DNA of 64,000 nt, from the NCBI RefSeq assembly GCF_023336935.1, contig NZ_JAMBLR010000002.1, positions 186,001-250,000 on the forward strand. The letters run 5' to 3'. Each line of letters opens with the position of its first letter. Positions within the stretch are counted from its first letter, which is position 1. The notes under the pieces are model-generated. The model did no database searches. It saw only the letters and a program-made list of their open reading frames with translations, and was not told the origin of the DNA. The stretch is from Phascolarctobacterium sp. ET69 (GTDB taxonomy: Bacteria; Bacillota; Negativicutes; Acidaminococcales; Acidaminococcaceae). Below are positions 2,067 to 60,731 of this stretch, in pieces. Made by a program: the position numbers and the translations under genes.

Positions 2067-2546
2067 TCAAGCAAAGAATAAATTCATGATAATCATAGCG
2101 CAGAGTGCGTTGAGAAGGCTGGCAAGCATTAAAAGCGGCCAGTATTTTTTTGGTACATCGGCTACGCCTAAAAGCCTGCCCATATATTGCAGTTGTGCCC
2201 CAAGCAAAAAGAAGCAGGGCATCAGAATCGTAATGTGGCGTGAGTCAAGCATGCCGTTTGCTGCCATGTTAGCTGCAAGCCCTACAGAAGCAGAACTGGA
2301 AAGCCAAGCAGTAAGCACTACCGTAACGGCTTCGCCTGGCAGTCCAAACAGTGTCATTGCCGGTCCGAAGACATTGCCTAAAAAACTCATAACACCAAGC
2401 AAATTGAGTATTTCTGCAACGGCATAAGCCATTAAGATGTTAGGTACAAGATTGTTGATTGCTATATTAAAACCCTTGCGGGCACCGATAACGAAAATAT
2501 CAAACGGATTGCCGGATACGTTTTTTGCTTGAACGCCGTTACTCAT
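2067..2546 (-). CDS. yjiG: YjiG-family inner-membrane protein (copy 1)
   Basis: A 159-residue hydrophobic protein with a nucleoside-recognition/Gate-type domain. It matches E. coli YjiG in length and in motifs such as GARKGFNIAINN near the N-terminus and the GLPGEAVTVVLTAW segment. It is translated just after yjiH with an 8-bp overlap; its AAGGAGG ribosome site lies inside the end of yjiH, so the two products are probably made in equal amounts and form one complex. Gate-domain proteins are related to transporter halves, but no substrate is established. The neighbouring divergent gene is an M20 amidohydrolase, and a second yjiHG pair at 38.7-39.8 kb also sits with M20 peptidases, which suggests transport of acyl-amino acids or small peptides (inference). 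Confidence 0.88.
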   Translation of the reverse strand: MSNGVQAKNVSGNPFDIFVIGARKGFNIAINNLVPNILMAYAVAEILNLLGVMSFLGNVFGPAMTLFGLPGEAVTVVLTAWLSSSASVGLAANMAANGMLDSRHITILMPCFFLLGAQLQYMGRLLGVADVPKKYWPLLMLASLLNALCAMIIMNLFFA

Positions 2547-3216
2547 TTTTAAAATCCTCCTTGTAAACAGTATTTAAAACAAAGCGCACAAACATGGCGC
2601 CGACAAATTTAAAAACAAACATCAGTAAAAAAGGTACAAGCAGCGGCACGGTTAAATAAGAAAACAGAGCAGAACCGATAGCAAAATAGTTGTTGATAAG
2701 TCCTGCACCGGAATATTGCCATGAGCCGATGATTGTAAGCTCTTTTTTTGTTATCAGGTCCTGGTCGTATAGTTCTTTGGTTAATGCCGCACCGGCATCT
2801 GTGCTTTGCAGGTCGGTAATCAGTGCTAGCCCGGTTAAACCCGGTACGCCGAGCAATGGTCGCAGCAATGGTGTTAAAAGTTTGTGGGCAGCTTTAATAG
2901 CTCCGTAGTGCGATAAAACTTCAAGACAGCCGATTGCCAGCATTACGCTTGGCACAAGTGACAGCGCAAACATAAAACCGCCGCGTGCACCCAGCCCGCC
3001 GGTGCCGACAAATGTATCCTTGCCAAGCGTTTTAACGGTGCCGAATTTGCCTATCAGTGTACTGAAGTCAAATGCGCTGAGCCATTTCATACCGTCAAAG
3101 CCGGTCATTATTCCGGAAAAGAATAAAATTGCAGCGGCTAAGGAAATAAAAGCCTTTGGCCCTACACGCCATTCTTCGGAATCAAAGTTAGTGAGTTTTT
3201 TCTCATTTTTCTCCAT
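2539..3216 (-). CDS. yjiH: YjiH-family inner-membrane protein (copy 1)
   Basis: A 225-residue membrane protein of the YjiH family (Gate/nucleoside-recognition domain), with a short charged N-terminus followed by several hydrophobic segments and the conserved GVPGLTGLALITDLQSTDAGA block. The ATG at 3216 has a strong GGAGGG site. It is the first gene of a two-gene operon with yjiG, read from a consensus promoter at 3268-3296 that faces away from the M20 gene at 3431. In E. coli yjiGH lies next to iadA, an isoaspartyl dipeptidase, so the peptidase association is seen elsewhere. Role as a two-subunit transporter is inferred. Confidence 0.88.
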   Translation of the reverse strand: MEKNEKKLTNFDSEEWRVGPKAFISLAAAILFFSGIMTGFDGMKWLSAFDFSTLIGKFGTVKTLGKDTFVGTGGLGARGGFMFALSLVPSVMLAIGCLEVLSHYGAIKAAHKLLTPLLRPLLGVPGLTGLALITDLQSTDAGAALTKELYDQDLITKKELTIIGSWQYSGAGLINNYFAIGSALFSYLTVPLLVPFLLMFVFKFVGAMFVRFVLNTVYKEDFKNE

Positions 3217-3259
3217 AATACCCTCCTATCAAACAACAAAAACAAATAATGCAACAAAT

Positions 3260-3281
3260 TTGTCTTTATTATATTGACAAA
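3260..3281. promoter_or_regulatory. Inverted repeat overlapping the yjiHG -10 box, candidate operator
   Basis: TTTGTC and GACAAA arms flank ten A/T bases and cover the -10 hexamer of the yjiHG promoter. A regulator bound here would block yjiHG directly and could also affect the divergent M20 gene. No regulator is identified for it. Confidence 0.4.
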
Positions 3282-3296
3282 AATGCGCAATGTCAA
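3268..3296 (-). promoter_or_regulatory. Sigma-70-type promoter for yjiHG
   Basis: On the minus strand TTGACA, a 17-base spacer and TATAAT, both hexamers perfect. Transcription would start about 45 bases before the yjiH ATG. Confidence 0.85.
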
Positions 3297-3344
3297 GACG
3301 AAGTTGAAAATTTATTTTTAGAATTTTTAAAATAAATTTTAGTG

Positions 3345-3373
3345 TTGCTATTTAAAAAACGATGTGTTATAAT
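3345..3373 (+). promoter_or_regulatory. Sigma-70-type promoter for the M20 gene at 3431
   Basis: TTGCTA, 17 bases, TATAAT, ending about 57 bases before the start codon. It is divergent from the yjiHG promoter with about 50 bases between the two -35 boxes. Confidence 0.75.
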
Positions 3374-3430
3374 TTTTTCAAATTTTGGTAAAATAATTGT
3401 TGTTGGTTGTTGTTTTTAGAGGAGGATAAT

Positions 3431-4534
3431 ATGGCTATTTTAAATGTAAAAGATATTTTTCATGATTTACACCAAATTCCGGAAATAGGCTTTCAAGAAT
3501 TTAAAACTTCTGCTTATCTTGCAGATAAATTAAGAGAACTTGGTTACAAAGTTACAACGAATGTTGGCGGAACCGGCGTTGTAGGTGTAGTAAAGGGTGC
3601 GGAACCAGGACCAGTAATGCTTTTGCGTGCAGATATGGATGCGCTGCCGTTTGTTATTAACGGCGAGCATAAAGCAATACACGCCTGTGGGCATGATGCG
3701 CACTGCTCTATGGTTTTGGCAGCGGCTTCTAACTTAAAAGATAAAATAAAAAAAGGAACTTTAAAAATTTTGTTTCAACAGGGCGAGGAAACTTTAAAAG
3801 GCGCGCTGGCTGTAATTGACGCTGGTGTGCTAGAAGACGTCGATATTGCTGTCGGGCTGCATATCCGTCCAGTGCAGGATTTGCCGTTTGGCAAATTATC
3901 GCCTGCTGTAAGGCATGCTTCAAGCACCTTTGCCAAAGTAAAAATTACAGGGCAAAGCTGTCACGGTTCGCGCCCGCATTTGGGTGTTAACGCTGTTGAA
4001 GCAGCAGCGGCGGTTATCAATGCGGCGTCTGGGGTTAGAATTAATCCGGTAATTTCCTGGTCTTGCAAAGCTACAGCCGTTAATGGTGGCGGCAATGCGT
4101 ATAATATTATTCCAGACCATGCGGAGATAACTTTTGACGTGCGCTGCCAGGAAAATGAAGGTATGACAGAATTGCTTGGCAAACTGCAGAAAGCTGCAGA
4201 AAATGTTGCCGCTGCTTACGGGGCAACGGCAGAATTTAGCTTACCGGGCGGAGTTATTCCAGCAGCAGTGCTTGATAAAGAGCTTACTGCCGAAGTTGCA
4301 GAGTGCATTAAAGAAGTCGTGGGTGAAGAAAATCTCGGCGAAGAACTTGTAAATCCCGGCGGTGAAGATTTCCATTACTTTGCTAAAACATATCCTAAAT
4401 TAAAATCGGCTTATTTTGGCGTCGGCGTTGCTGCCGAACCTGGGCTGCACGACCCTAATATGCATTTTAATATCGATGGTTTACAGGCTGGCGTGGAAGT
4501 TTTGGAAAAAATTACACTGAAAAAGCTTGGGTGA
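3431..4534 (+). CDS. M20-family amidohydrolase (N-acyl-amino-acid hydrolase type)
   Basis: A 367-residue cytoplasmic zinc hydrolase of the M20D type, related to aminoacylases such as AmhX. Visible metal and catalytic motifs are DMDALP, HACGHDAH, QQGEET and the dimerisation/substrate motif HGSRPHLGVNAVEAA. A late His in LHDPNMHF completes the site. The frame is open from 3407, but the ATG at 3431 follows AGAGGAGG by an ideal spacing. It probably removes an acyl group from an amino acid or cleaves a small amide; the substrate is not readable. Divergent from yjiHG and convergent with a second M20D gene, with a long hairpin between them. QQGEE replaces the more usual QPAEE of the family, which keeps the catalytic Glu. 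Confidence 0.85.
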   Translation: MAILNVKDIFHDLHQIPEIGFQEFKTSAYLADKLRELGYKVTTNVGGTGVVGVVKGAEPGPVMLLRADMDALPFVINGEHKAIHACGHDAHCSMVLAAASNLKDKIKKGTLKILFQQGEETLKGALAVIDAGVLEDVDIAVGLHIRPVQDLPFGKLSPAVRHASSTFAKVKITGQSCHGSRPHLGVNAVEAAAAVINAASGVRINPVISWSCKATAVNGGGNAYNIIPDHAEITFDVRCQENEGMTELLGKLQKAAENVAAAYGATAEFSLPGGVIPAAVLDKELTAEVAECIKEVVGEENLGEELVNPGGEDFHYFAKTYPKLKSAYFGVGVAAEPGLHDPNMHFNIDGLQAGVEVLEKITLKKLG

Positions 4535-4659: not shown

Positions 4660-5850
4660 TTACTCCAGCATAGAAAAATCCGAGCCGGTAAACAGGAAAA
4701 CAATGCCGCAGAATGTTACAGCCCCGGCTGAAATAGCGTCCTCGCTGAAAAGCAGCTTTCCGTTATGCAGGGCAAGATGCGAGTTTGGGTCTGCCATGCC
4801 AGTGCCGATACGGAAAAATGCCCCCGGTTTTTTAGCAAGATAGAAGGAAAAATCTTCCGAACCCATAGACGCGGAGGGGAGAATACTTACTTTATCGTTG
4901 CCTAAAAGTTTTGCAGCGGAAGTTTCTATCATACCTACAAGATTATCTGCTCCTATAACAGGCCCGCAGCCGGGTATAATTTCCGTTTCGGCGTGTACGC
5001 GCAGTGCCAGCGCCGTGCCGTCGGCAATGCGTTTAATGCTTTCGTGTATTTGCCTGCGTGTTTCCGGCACCAGATAGCGCATGGAACCTTCAAGCACTAC
5101 TTCTGAAGGAATGATATTGGCTGCAGTGCCTGCCGTCATTTTGCCTACGGTAATAACAGCGGAATCGAGCGGATTAAGTTCGCGCGAAACTATGGTTTGA
5201 AGCTGAGTAATCATATAAGCAGCTGCAGCAATCGGGTCCGGTGTTTTATGCGGGTGCGCTGCATGGCCGCCGGGAGCGGTAATTGTAATTTTAAAACTGT
5301 CGGAACCGGCCATCATCGGGCCGTATTTAATGCCGATTGAACCGCCGGGAACATCCGGCCAGGTATGTACGCCGAAAACAGCGTCAACATCATCTAAAAA
5401 TCCGTTGTTAATAATGGTTTCAGAACCGCCGAGTTTTTCTTCCGCCGGCTGGAAAAAGAATTTTACTGTACCGTGCAGGTGCTGGCGGTATTTGCTCAAA
5501 AGCCGGGCTGCCGCAAGCAGTGAAGTCATATGCAAATCGTGTCCGCAGGCATGGCAGCATCCTTCGTTTACGGATGCAAATTCCAACCCTGTATTTTCCT
5601 TAACCGGCAGCGCGTCGATATCGGCCCTTAATGCGATTGTTTTTCCGGGCATTGCACCATGTAAAACGCCGACAGCACCGGTAAAACCTTTGTTGTCATA
5701 AACTTCGATACCGTATTTATTTAATTCGTCTTTTATGAATTTTGTGGTATTTTCTTCCTGAAAGCTTAATTCCGGATGCTGGTGCAGGTAGCGCCTGATT
5801 TTTATATATTCAGGTTCAAGTTCCTGCATCATTTTTTGAATGGCTGACAT
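4660..5850 (-). CDS. M20D-family amidohydrolase (hippurate/IAA-amino-acid hydrolase type)
   Basis: A 396-residue cytoplasmic amidohydrolase of the HipO/ILR1-like group. Motifs seen are DIDALP, CCHACGHDLHM, FQPAEEKLGG, GGHAAHPH and the C-terminal MGSEDFSFYL, which together supply the two-metal site, catalytic Glu and substrate-binding His. Usual length for the group is about 390. The frame extends to 5868, but the Met at 5850 is chosen because GGGAGG lies 8 bases before it. Upstream at 5872-5890 is a pair of ATTATAAT-like palindromes also found before the creatininase-family gene at 6782, so both are probably controlled by the GntR regulator encoded between them. Likely substrates are N-acyl or N-aroyl amino acids. 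Confidence 0.88.
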   Translation of the reverse strand: MSAIQKMMQELEPEYIKIRRYLHQHPELSFQEENTTKFIKDELNKYGIEVYDNKGFTGAVGVLHGAMPGKTIALRADIDALPVKENTGLEFASVNEGCCHACGHDLHMTSLLAAARLLSKYRQHLHGTVKFFFQPAEEKLGGSETIINNGFLDDVDAVFGVHTWPDVPGGSIGIKYGPMMAGSDSFKITITAPGGHAAHPHKTPDPIAAAAYMITQLQTIVSRELNPLDSAVITVGKMTAGTAANIIPSEVVLEGSMRYLVPETRRQIHESIKRIADGTALALRVHAETEIIPGCGPVIGADNLVGMIETSAAKLLGNDKVSILPSASMGSEDFSFYLAKKPGAFFRIGTGMADPNSHLALHNGKLLFSEDAISAGAVTFCGIVFLFTGSDFSMLE

Positions 5851-5871
5851 ATTATTACCTCCCAACAAAAG

Positions 5872-37485: not shown

Positions 37486-38646
37486 ATGATGGGTATTAAG
37501 GAAAATGCGTTTGCGTATATTGATGCGCACCGCAGTGAGATGCTGAAAATGTGGGAAGAACTTGTCAGCATAGACAGCGGCTCTGACTATAAACCCGGCG
37601 TAGACAAAGTTGTTGCCAAAGTAGCAGGAATTTTAACGGATATGGGCGGCAAAACAGGTATTGTGGAACATGAAAATGCCGGTAATGCCGTTGTAAGCGA
37701 ATTTGGCGACTGCAAAACCAGGCCTTTTATTGTTTTAACAGGCCATCTGGATACTGTTTTCAGCGACCCGGAAACGACTAAGAAGCGTCCGTTTACCATT
37801 AAAGAGGGCAGGGCTTACGGCCCGGGTGCGCTGGATATGAAGGGCGGCGTTACGCTTGCCATTCACGGGCTGCAGGCCTTGCAGAATGCCGGATTTGACA
37901 AATATGCCTTTAAAGTTGTTTTTGCCGGTTACGAAGAAACGGGGCATAAAAACAGCGATTTGGCAGAAACCATGATGGCAGAATTTAAGGGTGCATTAGC
38001 GGCGTTTGATTTTGAAACCGGCTTTATGAACGATAACGTAGTTGTAGAGCGCAAAGGGTTTTACCGTTTCATTATGGAAACCTTCGGACGCAGCGTGCAT
38101 GCAGGCAATGAGCCTGAAAACGGCCGCAATGCTATCGTGGAACTGGCGCGCAAGGCTGTTGATATCGACGCTTTAACCGATTGGAACACCGGCACAACAA
38201 TTAATGTCGGTACTATCGAAGGCGGCACGGTTGCCAATGCTGTTCCGGCTTATGCCAGAATGGAAGTGGATGTGCGTTACCTTGACCCGGCGGATTTTGA
38301 AAAGAAGAAAGAGCAGTTTGAAGTTATTGTCGGCAAGGTTTACATTAAAGATGTAACTACCAAAATGACGCCGGTAGCAGGGCTTGAGCCGATGGTTCGC
38401 CTTGACGGCAATATGAAACTGTTTGATGTGTATAAATCGGTTTACGAAGAAGAAGGCTTCGGCAGCCCGGAACCGATTTTAGTCGGCGGCGGCAGCGATG
38501 CTACTTACACCACCAAAGTTGGTGTACCTACCGTTTGCGCTGTTGGCGTAAAAGGCGGTTTGAACCATACGGTTGATGAATTTGCCGATGTGGAATCGCT
38601 GTTTATGCGTGCCAAAGTATTTATCGGCACGGTTTTGAAATTATAA
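37486..38646 (+). CDS. M20-family peptidase, carboxypeptidase G2-like (copy A)
   Basis: A 386-residue zinc metallopeptidase of the M20A/CPG2 type. Metal ligands: His and Asp in TGHLDTVF, Asp in ALDMKGGV, Glu-Glu in YEETGH, and Asp in FDFETGF; the dimerisation domain follows (about 180-290) with the HAGNEPENGRNA motif, and the final His is in GGLNHTVDEF. CPG2-type enzymes release C-terminal glutamate from folate or acyl-glutamates. Strong GAGGAGG site. It starts an operon with yjiH, yjiG and a close paralogue at 39826; the pair look like products of duplication. YEE replaces the DEE of the paralogue. Confidence 0.88.
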   Translation: MMGIKENAFAYIDAHRSEMLKMWEELVSIDSGSDYKPGVDKVVAKVAGILTDMGGKTGIVEHENAGNAVVSEFGDCKTRPFIVLTGHLDTVFSDPETTKKRPFTIKEGRAYGPGALDMKGGVTLAIHGLQALQNAGFDKYAFKVVFAGYEETGHKNSDLAETMMAEFKGALAAFDFETGFMNDNVVVERKGFYRFIMETFGRSVHAGNEPENGRNAIVELARKAVDIDALTDWNTGTTINVGTIEGGTVANAVPAYARMEVDVRYLDPADFEKKKEQFEVIVGKVYIKDVTTKMTPVAGLEPMVRLDGNMKLFDVYKSVYEEEGFGSPEPILVGGGSDATYTTKVGVPTVCAVGVKGGLNHTVDEFADVESLFMRAKVFIGTVLKL

Positions 38647-38661
38647 TCAGGGGGGATTACT

Positions 38662-39321
38662 GTGGCTGAAAAAGATGTAACTGCGGTAGAAGAAAAAGAT
38701 TACGAGCATCATTTAACCTGGCGCGGCTGGCTGTCTTTTATAGTTGTTGCATTGTCGTTTTCGGGTGTTTTAAAAGATATGGGCCCGCTGAGCGCCTTTG
38801 ATTTTACGGTGCTGACAGGTAAATTCGGCAAAATCGAAGGGCTGAGCTTTATCGGCAAAGGCGGCGTTGGTGCTGCCGAAGGCTTTATGTTTGCCTTAAC
38901 GCTGTTCCCAACCGTTATTCTGGCTTTGGGCTTTGTGCGTGCGGTTGAATCGCAGGGCGGCCTGCTTGCGGCAGAACGCATTATCCGCCCGTTTTTAAAA
39001 CCGCTGATGGGCTTGCCCGGCTATGTAGGTTTGGCGTTAATCAGCAGCTTTACCACCACCGATGTTGGCGCTGTACTTACGCGCGACCTTGTTGAAGAAG
39101 GTAAAATTACAGATGACGAGCGTTCTATTTTCGTTGCTTACCAGTACGCTGCTTCCGGCACGCTGGCCAACACCATTAACTGCGGCGCGCCGCTGATTCC
39201 GATTTCGCTACTTTCTTTCGGCGTAATTTTTATGGTGGAAATTTTTGTAAAAATCGTCGGCGCAAACATTGTAAGGTTTTACCTGATGTTTAAACGTAAA
39301 AAAGCTGGGGGTGCTGCATAA
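38662..39321 (+). CDS. yjiH: YjiH-family inner-membrane protein (copy 2)
   Basis: A 219-residue Gate-domain membrane protein, paralogous to the product of 2539-3216: the same start of the membrane region (SAFDFTVLTGKFG against SAFDFSTLIGKFG) and the same block LMGLPGYVGLALISSFTTTDVGA. The GTG start at 38662 follows GGGGGGA by 5-6 bases. It lies 15 bases after the M20 gene and its stop overlaps the likely ATA start of yjiG, so the two gate proteins are again coupled. Confidence 0.87.
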   Translation: MAEKDVTAVEEKDYEHHLTWRGWLSFIVVALSFSGVLKDMGPLSAFDFTVLTGKFGKIEGLSFIGKGGVGAAEGFMFALTLFPTVILALGFVRAVESQGGLLAAERIIRPFLKPLMGLPGYVGLALISSFTTTDVGAVLTRDLVEEGKITDDERSIFVAYQYAASGTLANTINCGAPLIPISLLSFGVIFMVEIFVKIVGANIVRFYLMFKRKKAGGAA

Positions 39322-39809
39322 TAGCTGAGGCTGCTGCTAAAAAGAAAACTTTACTGGAAGAATTTATGTCCGGCTGTAAAAAAGGCTTTTACATCGGCGC
39401 AGAAAATATTATGCCGGCCATGGTTCTGGCTTATTCGCTGATTTTGTTTTTGAATATTACCGGTTTGATGGATATTATTGCCAATGCCGTTGCACCTGTT
39501 ATGGCGCTGTTTGGTTTGCCCGGCGGGGCGATTGTGGCGCTGATTTCCGCGTTTTTTGCCAAGGCTGCGGGAGCTGCTACGGCTGCTTCGCTTTATGCAG
39601 AAGGCGTTATTAACGCGGCACAGGCAACTATTTTGTTCCCGGCAACGATTACCATGGGCACGCTGGTTGGCCATTTTGCACGCTGCGTATTAACTTCCGG
39701 CGCCAATCCGAAGCACCATGCGCTGCTTTTGGCAATTCCCGTTATCGACGCTTTGCTGTCGATGATTATTGTAAGAGTTATACTTAATTTTATGGGCATT
39801 TCCTGCTAA
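39321..39809 (+). CDS. yjiG: YjiG-family inner-membrane protein (copy 2), probable ATA start
   Basis: A Gate-domain membrane protein of 162 residues if started at ATA 39321, or 147 if started at ATG 39366. The longer form is preferred for three reasons: GGGGGTG lies 7 bases before the ATA; TAATA overlaps the yjiH stop exactly as TAATG does in coupled genes; and the extra residues restore the N-terminal length of the first YjiG, which has 16 residues before the shared F--G--KGF block. ATG 39366 has its own weaker GGAAG site, so a shorter product is possible. Motifs LFGLPGGAIVALISAFFAKAAGAAT match copy 1. No alternative ATG, GTG or TTG exists in frame between 39318 and 39366. Confidence 0.8.
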   Translation: MAEAAAKKKTLLEEFMSGCKKGFYIGAENIMPAMVLAYSLILFLNITGLMDIIANAVAPVMALFGLPGGAIVALISAFFAKAAGAATAASLYAEGVINAAQATILFPATITMGTLVGHFARCVLTSGANPKHHALLLAIPVIDALLSMIIVRVILNFMGISC

Positions 39810-39825
39810 CTGGAGGAGAACTATC

Positions 39826-40983
39826 TTGGATATAAAAGAAAAGGCTTTTGGCTATATTGATGAACATCGTGACGGCATGATGAAAATGTGGGAAGAACTT
39901 GTTATGATGGACAGCGGCTCCGGCAATAAGCCGGGCGTTGATGCCATTGTGGCAAAGGTTGCCGGCATTTTGGAAGGCATGGGCGGCAAAACCCGCATTA
40001 TTGAACACGAAAATGCAGGTAATATGCTGGTAAGCGAGTTTGGCGACTGCAAAAATAAACCTTTTGTAATTTTTACAGGCCATCTGGATACCGTTTTTGA
40101 CGACCCGGAAACCACTAAAAAACGCCCTTTTACCATTAAAGACGGCACTGCTTACGGTCCGGGCGCGCTGGATATGAAGGGCGGCGTAACGCTTGCCATT
40201 CATGCTTTGCAGGCCTTGCAGAGCGTTGGTTTTGACAAATACGGCGTTAAGGTTATTTTGGCAGGCGACGAAGAAGTTGGGCACAAGCACAGCGATTTTG
40301 CCGGTAAGATGATGGAAGAAGCCAAAGGCGCGGCTTATGCTTTTAACTTTGAAACCGGCTTTATGGACGACAGCCTGGTGCTGGCGCGCAAAGGCGTGTA
40401 CTGTTTTGCCATGGAAGCCTTCGGCCGCGGCGCGCATGTAGGCAATGCGCCAGAAGAAGGGCGCAGCGCCATTAAAGAACTGGCGTACAAAATTCTGGAT
40501 ATTGAAGCGTTAACCGACTGGAGCAAGGGGCTTAATTTAAACGTCGGCGTTATTGAAGGCGGCACTGTGCATAACTCCGCACCGGCGTATGCCAAAATGA
40601 TTGTGGATATGCGCTTTACCGACCCGGCAATGCTGGAAGCAATGAAAGCCAAATTCCAGGAAATTAACGATAAAGTTTACGTTGACGGCGTAACCTGCAA
40701 AATGACGCCGGTATCTTTAATGCAGCCGATGGTAGAACTGGAAAGCAGCAAAGAATTGTTTGAGCTTGTTAAAAAAGTTTATGAAGAAGAAGGCTTTGGC
40801 AGCCCGAAAGCAATTACCGTTGGCGGCGGCAGCGATTCTGCCTACACAACCATGGTTGGCGTGCCTACCGTGTGTGCTATGGGCGTAAAAGGCGGCCGCA
40901 ACCATACGGTTGACGAGTTTGCCAATGTGGAATCGCTGTTTATGCGTGCCAAATTAATGTGTGCCGTAATGCTGGCGCTGTAA
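39826..40983 (+). CDS. M20-family peptidase, carboxypeptidase G2-like (copy B), TTG start
   Basis: A 385-residue M20 metallopeptidase very close in sequence to the one at 37486 through its whole length, e.g. TGHLDTVFDDPETTKKRPF, ALDMKGGVTLAIH and GGGSDSAYTTMVGVPT. The active-site Glu pair is in DEEVGHKHSD. The start is TTG at 39826, supported by GGAGGAG with a 7-base spacing and by alignment with copy A (MDIKEKAF against MGIKENAF). Closing gene of the M20-yjiH-yjiG-M20 operon. Substrate probably an acyl-glutamate or small peptide (inference from the family and context). Confidence 0.88.
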   Translation: MDIKEKAFGYIDEHRDGMMKMWEELVMMDSGSGNKPGVDAIVAKVAGILEGMGGKTRIIEHENAGNMLVSEFGDCKNKPFVIFTGHLDTVFDDPETTKKRPFTIKDGTAYGPGALDMKGGVTLAIHALQALQSVGFDKYGVKVILAGDEEVGHKHSDFAGKMMEEAKGAAYAFNFETGFMDDSLVLARKGVYCFAMEAFGRGAHVGNAPEEGRSAIKELAYKILDIEALTDWSKGLNLNVGVIEGGTVHNSAPAYAKMIVDMRFTDPAMLEAMKAKFQEINDKVYVDGVTCKMTPVSLMQPMVELESSKELFELVKKVYEEEGFGSPKAITVGGGSDSAYTTMVGVPTVCAMGVKGGRNHTVDEFANVESLFMRAKLMCAVMLAL

Positions 40984-41019: not shown

Positions 41020-41033
41020 TAATTTAACTGAAC

Positions 41034-41118
41034 AGGGGAGCTTACAGATAGGCTGAGAGGAAGCTGTGCGCTTCGACCCTAAACCTGATTTGGATAATGC
41101 CAACGTAGGGAATGTTTG
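41034..41118 (+). promoter_or_regulatory. TPP riboswitch (THI element)
   Basis: The conserved THI-box parts are present in order: AGGGGAGC, GGCTGAGAGG, CGACCCT, ACCTGATTTGGATAATGCC, and AACGTAGGGAATG. Binding of thiamin pyrophosphate is expected to favour the terminator that follows at 41126 and shut off thiSFGHE. Confidence 0.97.
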
Positions 41119-41125
41119 CAGATAG

Positions 41126-41159
41126 CGGCAAGTGCCTTGTTGGTGCTTGCCGTTTCTTT
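41126..41159 (+). terminator. Attenuator terminator of the TPP riboswitch
   Basis: CGGCAAGTGCC pairs with GGTGCTTGCCG (two wobble pairs) around TTGTT, followed by TTTCTTT. Confidence 0.85.
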
Positions 41160-59498: not shown

Positions 59499-60731
59499 AT
59501 GCGTAAATTTATTAAAGACTATCTGGCAAAAGAGTACGATAACTATGTGAAGGATTTGGAAGCGCTGACCAATATCGACAGCGGTAACGGCGATTTGGAA
59601 GGCACCACGGAAGCCAATAAATTTGTAGCCGCCAAAATGGAGGCGCTGGGGGCGGAGACGGAGTTCCGTTATAACGACCGCGCCTGCCATTTAATTTCGC
59701 GCCTTAAGGGCAAGGGCACGCAGACTGTGCTTTTGGTTGCGCATGTTGACACCGTGTTTAAACGCGGCGAAGCTGCCAAACGCCCCTTCCGCGTGGATGA
59801 AAACGGCTTTGCCTGGGGACCGGGCGTAGGCGACGACAAAGCAACGGTTATGGAAGTTATTTACGGCCTTGCGGCTTTAAAAGAAGCAGGCTTTGACGAT
59901 TATAAAGAAATTATTTATTACACCAACGCCGAAGAAGAAGGCGGCAGCCCGACTGCCGAAGGCATTGTGGCAGAGCTTTCGCAGCAGGCAGATTTTGCCG
60001 TTATTATGGACGTTGCGCGCCCGAACTGGGGCATTGTAACCCAGCGTAAAGGCAACGCGAAATACAAAATTACCGTTACCGGCAAAGGCGGGCACCACGG
60101 CAACGCTTCGCAGTGCTGCGCCAACGCCATTCACCAGCTGGCTTACACCATTACCGAGCTGCATAAGCTGGCAAGCCCCATGCCCGGCAAACCGGAAGAT
60201 TTTACCGCCAAAGCACTGGAAGCACGCGGTATTGTGGACAGCGGTCAGTTCATTCCGCCCAACACCGTTAACGTGGGCGTTATCGGCAGCACCAACGATA
60301 AAATCAGCGTTATCCCCGGCGACGCTTACTGCGAAGTAAACGTGCGCTGCTTTGAAGTGGCTGAGCAGAAACGTTTGGACGCAGCCATTAAAGCACTGGC
60401 AGATAAAATCGTTATCGACGGCACTAAAGTAGAAGTTACCGGCGGCATTGTAACCGGCCCGATGGAAAAAACTCCTGCCGTGCAGAAAATGATTGATGTA
60501 TACAGCAGCGTTGTTGCCGAAGAATTCGGCGGCAAGGTGAACGAATGGGTGGCAGGCGGCTTAACGGACGGCAACCGCACCGCTAAATTCATTCCGACTT
60601 TGGACGCTTTGGGCGTAGAAAACTATGACGAGCATACCGACCACGAATCGGTAGATTTAAAAACCGCCGTACCGCGCACCGCGGCGTTTGCCATTACCCT
60701 GGCAGAACTTTTAAAAACCGGCGTTAAATAA
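59499..60731 (+). CDS. M20-family peptidase (third CPG2-like type)
   Basis: A 410-residue M20 metallopeptidase. Metal and catalytic residues are in VAHVDTVFKRG, GPGVGDDKATV, NAEEEGGSPTAEG and VIMDVARPN; the lid domain has GKGGHHGNASQCCANAI, and the last ligand His is in DEHTDHESVDL. It differs from the pair at 37.5/39.8 kb (GDDK for DMKG, an EEE motif) and has no transporter beside it. It follows AAAGGAGG. Fifth M20 gene in the window. Confidence 0.88.
   Translation: MRKFIKDYLAKEYDNYVKDLEALTNIDSGNGDLEGTTEANKFVAAKMEALGAETEFRYNDRACHLISRLKGKGTQTVLLVAHVDTVFKRGEAAKRPFRVDENGFAWGPGVGDDKATVMEVIYGLAALKEAGFDDYKEIIYYTNAEEEGGSPTAEGIVAELSQQADFAVIMDVARPNWGIVTQRKGNAKYKITVTGKGGHHGNASQCCANAIHQLAYTITELHKLASPMPGKPEDFTAKALEARGIVDSGQFIPPNTVNVGVIGSTNDKISVIPGDAYCEVNVRCFEVAEQKRLDAAIKALADKIVIDGTKVEVTGGIVTGPMEKTPAVQKMIDVYSSVVAEEFGGKVNEWVAGGLTDGNRTAKFIPTLDALGVENYDEHTDHESVDLKTAVPRTAAFAITLAELLKTGVK

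Follow-up and report, generated by a model that had tools for sequence, protein, structure and literature searches.

Near the start of the window, by which we mean the whole stretch of 64,000 nucleotides analysed here, the genome of Phascolarctobacterium sp. ET69 encoded two small Gate-domain membrane proteins, YjiH and YjiG, next to a hydrolase of the M20 family. The features of this locus (copy 1) were the following:

2067-2546, minus strand: yjiG, Gate-domain membrane protein of 159 aa (NF007811/PRK10519 and Pfam Gate models, AF2 model, charge pattern)
2539-3216, minus strand: yjiH, Gate-domain membrane protein of 225 aa with one extra N-terminal TM helix (Gate model, AF2 model, hhalign match to YjiG, charges)
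3217-3430, no strand: divergent regulatory region of 214 nt common to yjiHG and the M20 gene (sequence and promoter scan)
3268-3296, minus strand: predicted sigma-70-like promoter of yjiHG, TTGACA-N17-TATAAT, a 12/12 match (promoter scan)
3345-3373, plus strand: predicted sigma-70-like promoter of the M20 gene, TTGCTA-N17-TATAAT with a TG extended -10 (consensus match only)
3431-4534, plus strand: M20 amidohydrolase of the aminoacylase / IAA-amino-acid hydrolase type, 367 aa (TIGR01891, metal-site motifs)

YjiG scored 195.9 bits with the NF007811/PRK10519 model (cut-off 111), which places it in the YjiG family, and 38.1 bits with Pfam Gate (PF07670, cut-off 29.6), a cut-off that YjiH also exceeded (34.3 bits); the two ORFs overlapped by 8 nt. 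The M20 protein belonged to the TIGR01891 subfamily (262.1 bits, cut-off 153.75), its alignment contained the metal-site motifs ADMDA, CGHDAH and GEE, and the nearest solved structures were ILL2 (1xmb), 4ewt, YxeP (1ysj) and an N-alpha-acyl-glutamine aminoacylase (6slf). No signal peptide was recognised by eye, and the enzyme looks cytoplasmic. The ATG at 3431, which is preceded by GGAGG, is a better start for it than a TTG codon at 3407. An initial annotation had described yjiHG as divergent from the M20 gene with a common regulatory region, and the coordinates agree, with yjiHG running from 3216 to 2067 on the minus strand, the M20 start at 3431 and 214 nt in between. A TTGACA-N17/18-TATAAT element towards yjiHG recurred in all five of the closest relatives aligned, with differing flanks. 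The palindrome TTGACA-N11-TGTCAA at 3274-3296 is probably not a conserved operator, as it was present in this genome only and overlaps the -35 box. An Rfam search around the yjiHG locus gave no match; the sole match in the window was a TPP riboswitch elsewhere (41024-41130), upstream of thiamine-biosynthesis-like genes.

The 1.88 Mb genome encoded 11 M20 genes and two YjiHG pairs, both adjoining M20 genes. The second pair (copy 2) also lay in the window, within the following module:

37486-38646, plus strand: M20 peptidase, carboxypeptidase G2 (CPG2)-like (Pfam M20 and M20_dimer; nearest solved structure CPG2, 1cg2)
38662-39321, plus strand: YjiH, 41% identical to copy 1 (Gate, 28.1 bits)
39366-39809, plus strand: YjiG (NF007811, 151.3 bits; alignment of starts)
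39826-40983, plus strand: M20 peptidase, CPG2-like, 68% identical to the M20 at 37486

The flanking of this copy by M20 peptidases, as initially annotated, was confirmed: the pair spans 38662-39809 and has an M20 gene on either side, the two sharing 68% identity. Its YjiG exceeded the NF007811 cut-off of 111 and scored 45.4 bits with the Gate model, while YjiH lay just below the Gate cut-off of 29.6. Translation of this yjiG may begin at an ATA beside the yjiH stop or 45 nt downstream at 39366 (region 39318-39366); judged by the aligned relatives, which have an ATG where this genome has the ATA, the true start is probably at about 39321. Another M20 peptidase at 59499-60731, which shares about 27-29% identity with both CPG2-like enzymes, had no adjoining YjiHG.

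We then compared the gene neighbourhoods of 126 YjiHG loci. Besides both window copies and three loci of close relatives, the set came from systematic genome searches in Negativicutes, other Bacillota and Pseudomonadota. The YjiG model was run against three sets of genomes: the window's phylum (399 genomes, 13 over the cut-off), the phylum to which Klebsiella michiganensis belongs (399 genomes, 14 over the cut-off) and the window's class (201 genomes, 68 over the cut-off). In the first of these searches true YjiG proteins scored above 150 bits versus less than 55 bits for other Gate proteins. About 11 kb was read around each of 124 loci, counting two Parasutterella loci and one from a Sulfurospirillum MAG that came from a separate search, in addition to the two window copies. 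ORFs were called by a simple picker that resolves overlaps, and were grouped into clusters without prior labels. As controls we used 16 loci of other Gate proteins that fell under the cut-off in the same search, with up to 11 kb read for each.

An M20 or IadA (M38) gene was immediately adjacent to YjiHG in 115 of the 126 loci (91%). The commonest neighbour clusters were two of M20 enzymes and a third of IadA (TIGR01975, 518 bits), and by class the adjacent hydrolases across the 126 loci were 49 M20 of the aminoacylase type, 49 M20 of the CPG2 type and 24 IadA. Hydrolases made up 53% of the adjacent genes versus 0.8% (3/376) of those four or more genes away, the rate falling with growing gene distance from 53% to 9%, 4.5%, 1.6% and 0%, and no M20 or IadA gene was found near any of the 16 control loci within stretches of up to 11 kb. 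The link was kept in 24 of 24 pairs after dereplication at 60% identity (Fisher p 5e-15) and in 73 of 74 at 80%, where lone pairs were partly absorbed by close kin carrying the enzyme. By group, adjacency was seen in 92/98 loci of Negativicutes, 8/8 of other Bacillota and 11/15 of Pseudomonadota, and in 74/80 loci among close relatives. Of the adjacent hydrolase genes, 77 lay downstream and 29 upstream in the same orientation as yjiHG and 23 were divergent, whereas none was convergent (0 of the 77 downstream enzymes). Defining a module as YjiHG with a directly neighbouring, non-convergent M20 or IadA gene, we count both window copies as modules. In both of them and in nearly all of the 126 loci yjiH directly preceded yjiG on the same strand, and across loci the two genes mostly overlapped, usually by 1-14 nt. 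Some loci without an adjacent hydrolase were cut by contig ends, and two had broken or gapped M20 genes; true exceptions included Sutterellaceae and part of one pseudomonadotal clade. The neighbourhood statistic proposed in the initial annotation, for which a lack of peptidase enrichment beside yjiHG in other genomes would have refuted the proposal, thus yielded a clear enrichment.

The other window neighbours of copy 1 were considered as further parts of the module (GDH, nitrilase, GntR-UTRA, creatininase, CitMHS and a second M20 at 4660-5868) and rejected. They hardly recurred in YjiHG loci, the only exceptions being M20 and one other member of the creatininase cluster. Because of this near lack of recurrence, window neighbours other than M20 were left out of the module, and GDH, nitrilase, GntR, creatininase and CitMHS should not inform the function of YjiHG.

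M20 and M38 enzymes have unrelated folds. A tree of YjiH and YjiG required at least nine label changes for each M20 class and at least four for IadA, versus 18-38 with shuffled labels, although the count is soft, given a quick tree with many open forks and long rows. Since YjiHG must have changed several times on this tree from one hydrolase family to an unrelated one, the link to hydrolases probably arose more than once; it is not a single frozen gene order. The repeated association with amidases and peptidases that the initial annotation had noticed is therefore strongly supported, by the 115 of 126 loci and by partnerships with hydrolases of two unrelated folds that apparently formed several times independently.

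The same annotation had noted that the Escherichia coli pair lies next to iadA, and we read the order yjiH-yjiG-iadA directly in K-12. It was present in 5360 of 5426 complete E. coli genomes (98.8%). The E. coli locus resembles copy 1 in having the same pair in the same order (41% identity for YjiH and 41% for YjiG) adjoining an amide hydrolase, which in E. coli is directly downstream; it differs in that the partner is an M38 isoaspartyl dipeptidase instead of an M20 enzyme and is co-directional instead of divergent. Citrobacter plasmids also carried yjiH-yjiG-iadA, one copy between two IS26 elements and without another catabolic gene. In Klebsiella oxytoca, plasmid P4 has a yjiH frame ahead of yjiG and M20 that showed one internal stop within the part read; the record does not annotate this frame, and the plasmid copy may be broken.

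Several further genes recurred near the modules. In 13 Negativicutes loci a glycyl radical enzyme was encoded near a CPG2-type M20 and a YjiHG of the second type. The 12 copies compared were 69-96% identical to each other. The enzyme has an RVAGY loop and the active-site cysteine motif CGCVVP, and scored below the cut-offs of the choline lyase and hydroxyproline dehydratase models. It was usually accompanied by an activase and often by PFOR (pyruvate:ferredoxin oxidoreductase), RidA and a chemotaxis-receptor-like gene. The gene order suggests that uptake and hydrolysis are followed by radical elimination, then by imine hydrolysis and oxidation, in what may be a new degradation pathway. Sigma-54 regulators, for which the best models were PrdR/PrpR with scores under the cut-offs, were divergent from yjiHG in nine loci and others, mostly of the IadA type, and enterobacterial M20-type loci had a LysR regulator in place of the sigma-54 regulator. 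Six related pseudomonadotal loci showed an NhaD-like Na+/H+ antiporter (identified by eye) divergent from yjiHG, a possible hint of sodium coupling or only of shared descent.

Both proteins are built on one homologous Gate unit. The YjiH and YjiG profiles aligned over 130 columns in hhalign (probability 97.4, E 1.3e-11), and AF2 models of the halves, modelled apart and with good confidence (pLDDT 84 for YjiH and 88 for YjiG), showed the same helix series plus the extra N-terminal TM helix in YjiH. The distribution of lysine and arginine was opposite in the two proteins (means of 68 YjiH and 72 YjiG sequences), with 2.9 versus 0.6 residues at the second Gate helix (after the first Gate TM), 0.07 versus 2.3 in the last loop and 3.5 versus 0.9 in the C-terminal tail. 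YjiG is predicted to have its N-terminus inside and its C-terminus outside, and the Gate unit of YjiH is predicted to have the opposite membrane orientation. Because these charge patterns are opposite, the two units would, by the positive-inside rule, be antiparallel. A heterodimeric transporter would agree with the division into two genes, with their overlapping frames and with the inversion of the halves. The initial proposal of a two-subunit importer for acyl-amino acids or dipeptides is accordingly supported in its two-subunit part, since the Gate units are homologous, their predicted topologies opposite and the genes overlapping; the cargo, N-acyl amino acids or dipeptides, we infer from the enzyme specificities. 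Only few and weak positions in YjiH and YjiG separated the hydrolase classes.

The sequence data are best explained if YjiHG is an antiparallel two-subunit secondary transporter that imports amide-linked amino-acid conjugates for the neighbouring cytoplasmic hydrolase, and we consider this probable. YjiH and YjiG would form one transporter with one homologous Gate unit per chain, and the two units would run in opposite directions through the membrane, as the inverted halves do in Gate or CNT-type transporters made of a single chain. This transporter would take up small amide-linked amino-acid compounds such as N-acyl amino acids, dipeptides or isoaspartyl dipeptides, and the neighbouring metallo-hydrolase would then cut the imported conjugate in the cytoplasm, the partner being an M20 of the aminoacylase type for copy 1, an M20 of the CPG2 type for copy 2 and IadA in E. 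coli. Import of conjugates is the simplest reading since M20 and IadA look cytoplasmic and have amide-linked amino-acid substrates in common. That YjiHG transports at all, is a secondary transporter, imports rather than exports, has the substrate of the hydrolase as its cargo and is tuned clade by clade to the partner enzyme, we infer.

Export would account for the adjacency just as import does, and genomic context cannot separate the two. YjiHG might thus export what the hydrolase sets free (an amino acid or an acyl group) or swap it for the substrate, with another permease importing the conjugate, and transporters of the SLC1 or CitMHS type were indeed found near some YjiHG loci. However, no second transporter recurred with the module at nearly the rate of the hydrolase, and the three hydrolase classes free different products, yet the substrate type, an amide-linked amino acid, is common to all. 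We therefore regard export or exchange as unlikely.

Supply of a metal ion to the partner enzymes was considered too, since both M20 and IadA have a binuclear metal centre and FeoB, which transports iron, likewise contains a Gate domain; the FeoB model gave a weak match to YjiG. Polar residues invariant in the families (125/125 each) were D140, N176 and K203 in YjiH and R124 in YjiG, the conserved polar residue types were D, N, K, R, Q and E, and no conserved Cys or His was found in the family alignments of either subunit. Such a set of conserved residues points to a charged organic cargo rather than to a metal. Moreover, none of the recurrent neighbours was recognised as a metal-uptake gene or regulator, and metal transporters do not as a rule serve one catabolic enzyme alone, so that a metal-supplying role seems very improbable. 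Still harder to sustain is transport of nucleosides with an incidental amidase link, as suggested by the Pfam name of Gate ('Nucleoside recognition') and by a nucleoside transporter as the best, non-significant fold match of YjiH, given that amidase enrichment was far beyond chance, that no nucleoside-metabolism gene was among the identified recurrent neighbour clusters and that Gate is also found in non-nucleoside proteins such as FeoB and YlbJ.

On a broader and more tentative reading, to which we give somewhat less than even weight, YjiHG might be an unrecognised heterodimeric antiparallel Gate family of general conjugate importers with clades tuned to their hydrolase, delivering isoaspartyl dipeptides to IadA in E. 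coli and feeding the glycyl radical enzyme pathway in some Negativicutes. Although yjiH and yjiG are near-universal in E. coli, no function is assigned to them in the open-access papers to which our search was limited; few of these name yjiH or yjiG, and those read gave only expression changes and the Gate annotation. We found in these papers neither a transport assay for YjiHG nor an earlier recognition of the hydrolase linkage. A paper on isoaspartyl dipeptidases mentions transporters near these enzymes in cyanophycin loci without naming YjiHG (PMC10206079). If true, import by YjiHG would be the route by which gut bacteria such as Phascolarctobacterium take in isoaspartyl dipeptides or N-acyl amino acids, and the pair would represent a natural two-gene inverted-repeat transporter with halves open to separate study.

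Among known systems, FeoB and CNT transporters share the Gate domain with YjiHG, and inverted Gate repeats occur within one transporter. Only the Gate part matched, and the YjiHG halves are on separate genes. The FeoB model scored 20.4 bits on YjiG (cut-off 315.65) over the Gate part only, and CNT-specific flanking domains were absent by Pfam, with Gate alone found. We do not claim membership in either family. Foldseek gave no significant match to solved structures for either half, the top matches being CNTnw for YjiH (E 2.0, TM 0.29) and 9x2m, 'Gut transporter with sorbitol', for YjiG (E 1.1, probability 0.63), both non-significant, and profile searches of solved structures with YjiH or YjiG gave no match. 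The control Gate proteins, which from size and sequence we take to be SpmA/SpmB-like, are likewise small, split Gate-domain membrane proteins, but scored 48-54 bits with the YjiG model (cut-off 111) and had M20 or IadA nearby in 0/16 cases. YlbJ and other single-chain Gate proteins of about 450 aa are a plausible fused counterpart of YjiHG with different neighbours. Two such proteins were encoded at one locus (L266, 3090-6836) beside, by eye, an IclR-like regulator and 2-oxoacid:ferredoxin oxidoreductase subunits, and these could possibly be fused counterparts with another cargo. A functional parallel might be AbgT with AbgAB, which take up and cleave aminobenzoyl-glutamate; an aminobenzoyl-glutamate utilization protein (3io1) was among the structure matches of the M20 at 3431-4534. 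As in the YjiHG-M20 modules, a dedicated permease adjoins a cytoplasmic M20 amidohydrolase. AbgT, however, is a single chain of another family, whereas YjiHG consists of two Gate chains and has three hydrolase classes as partners.
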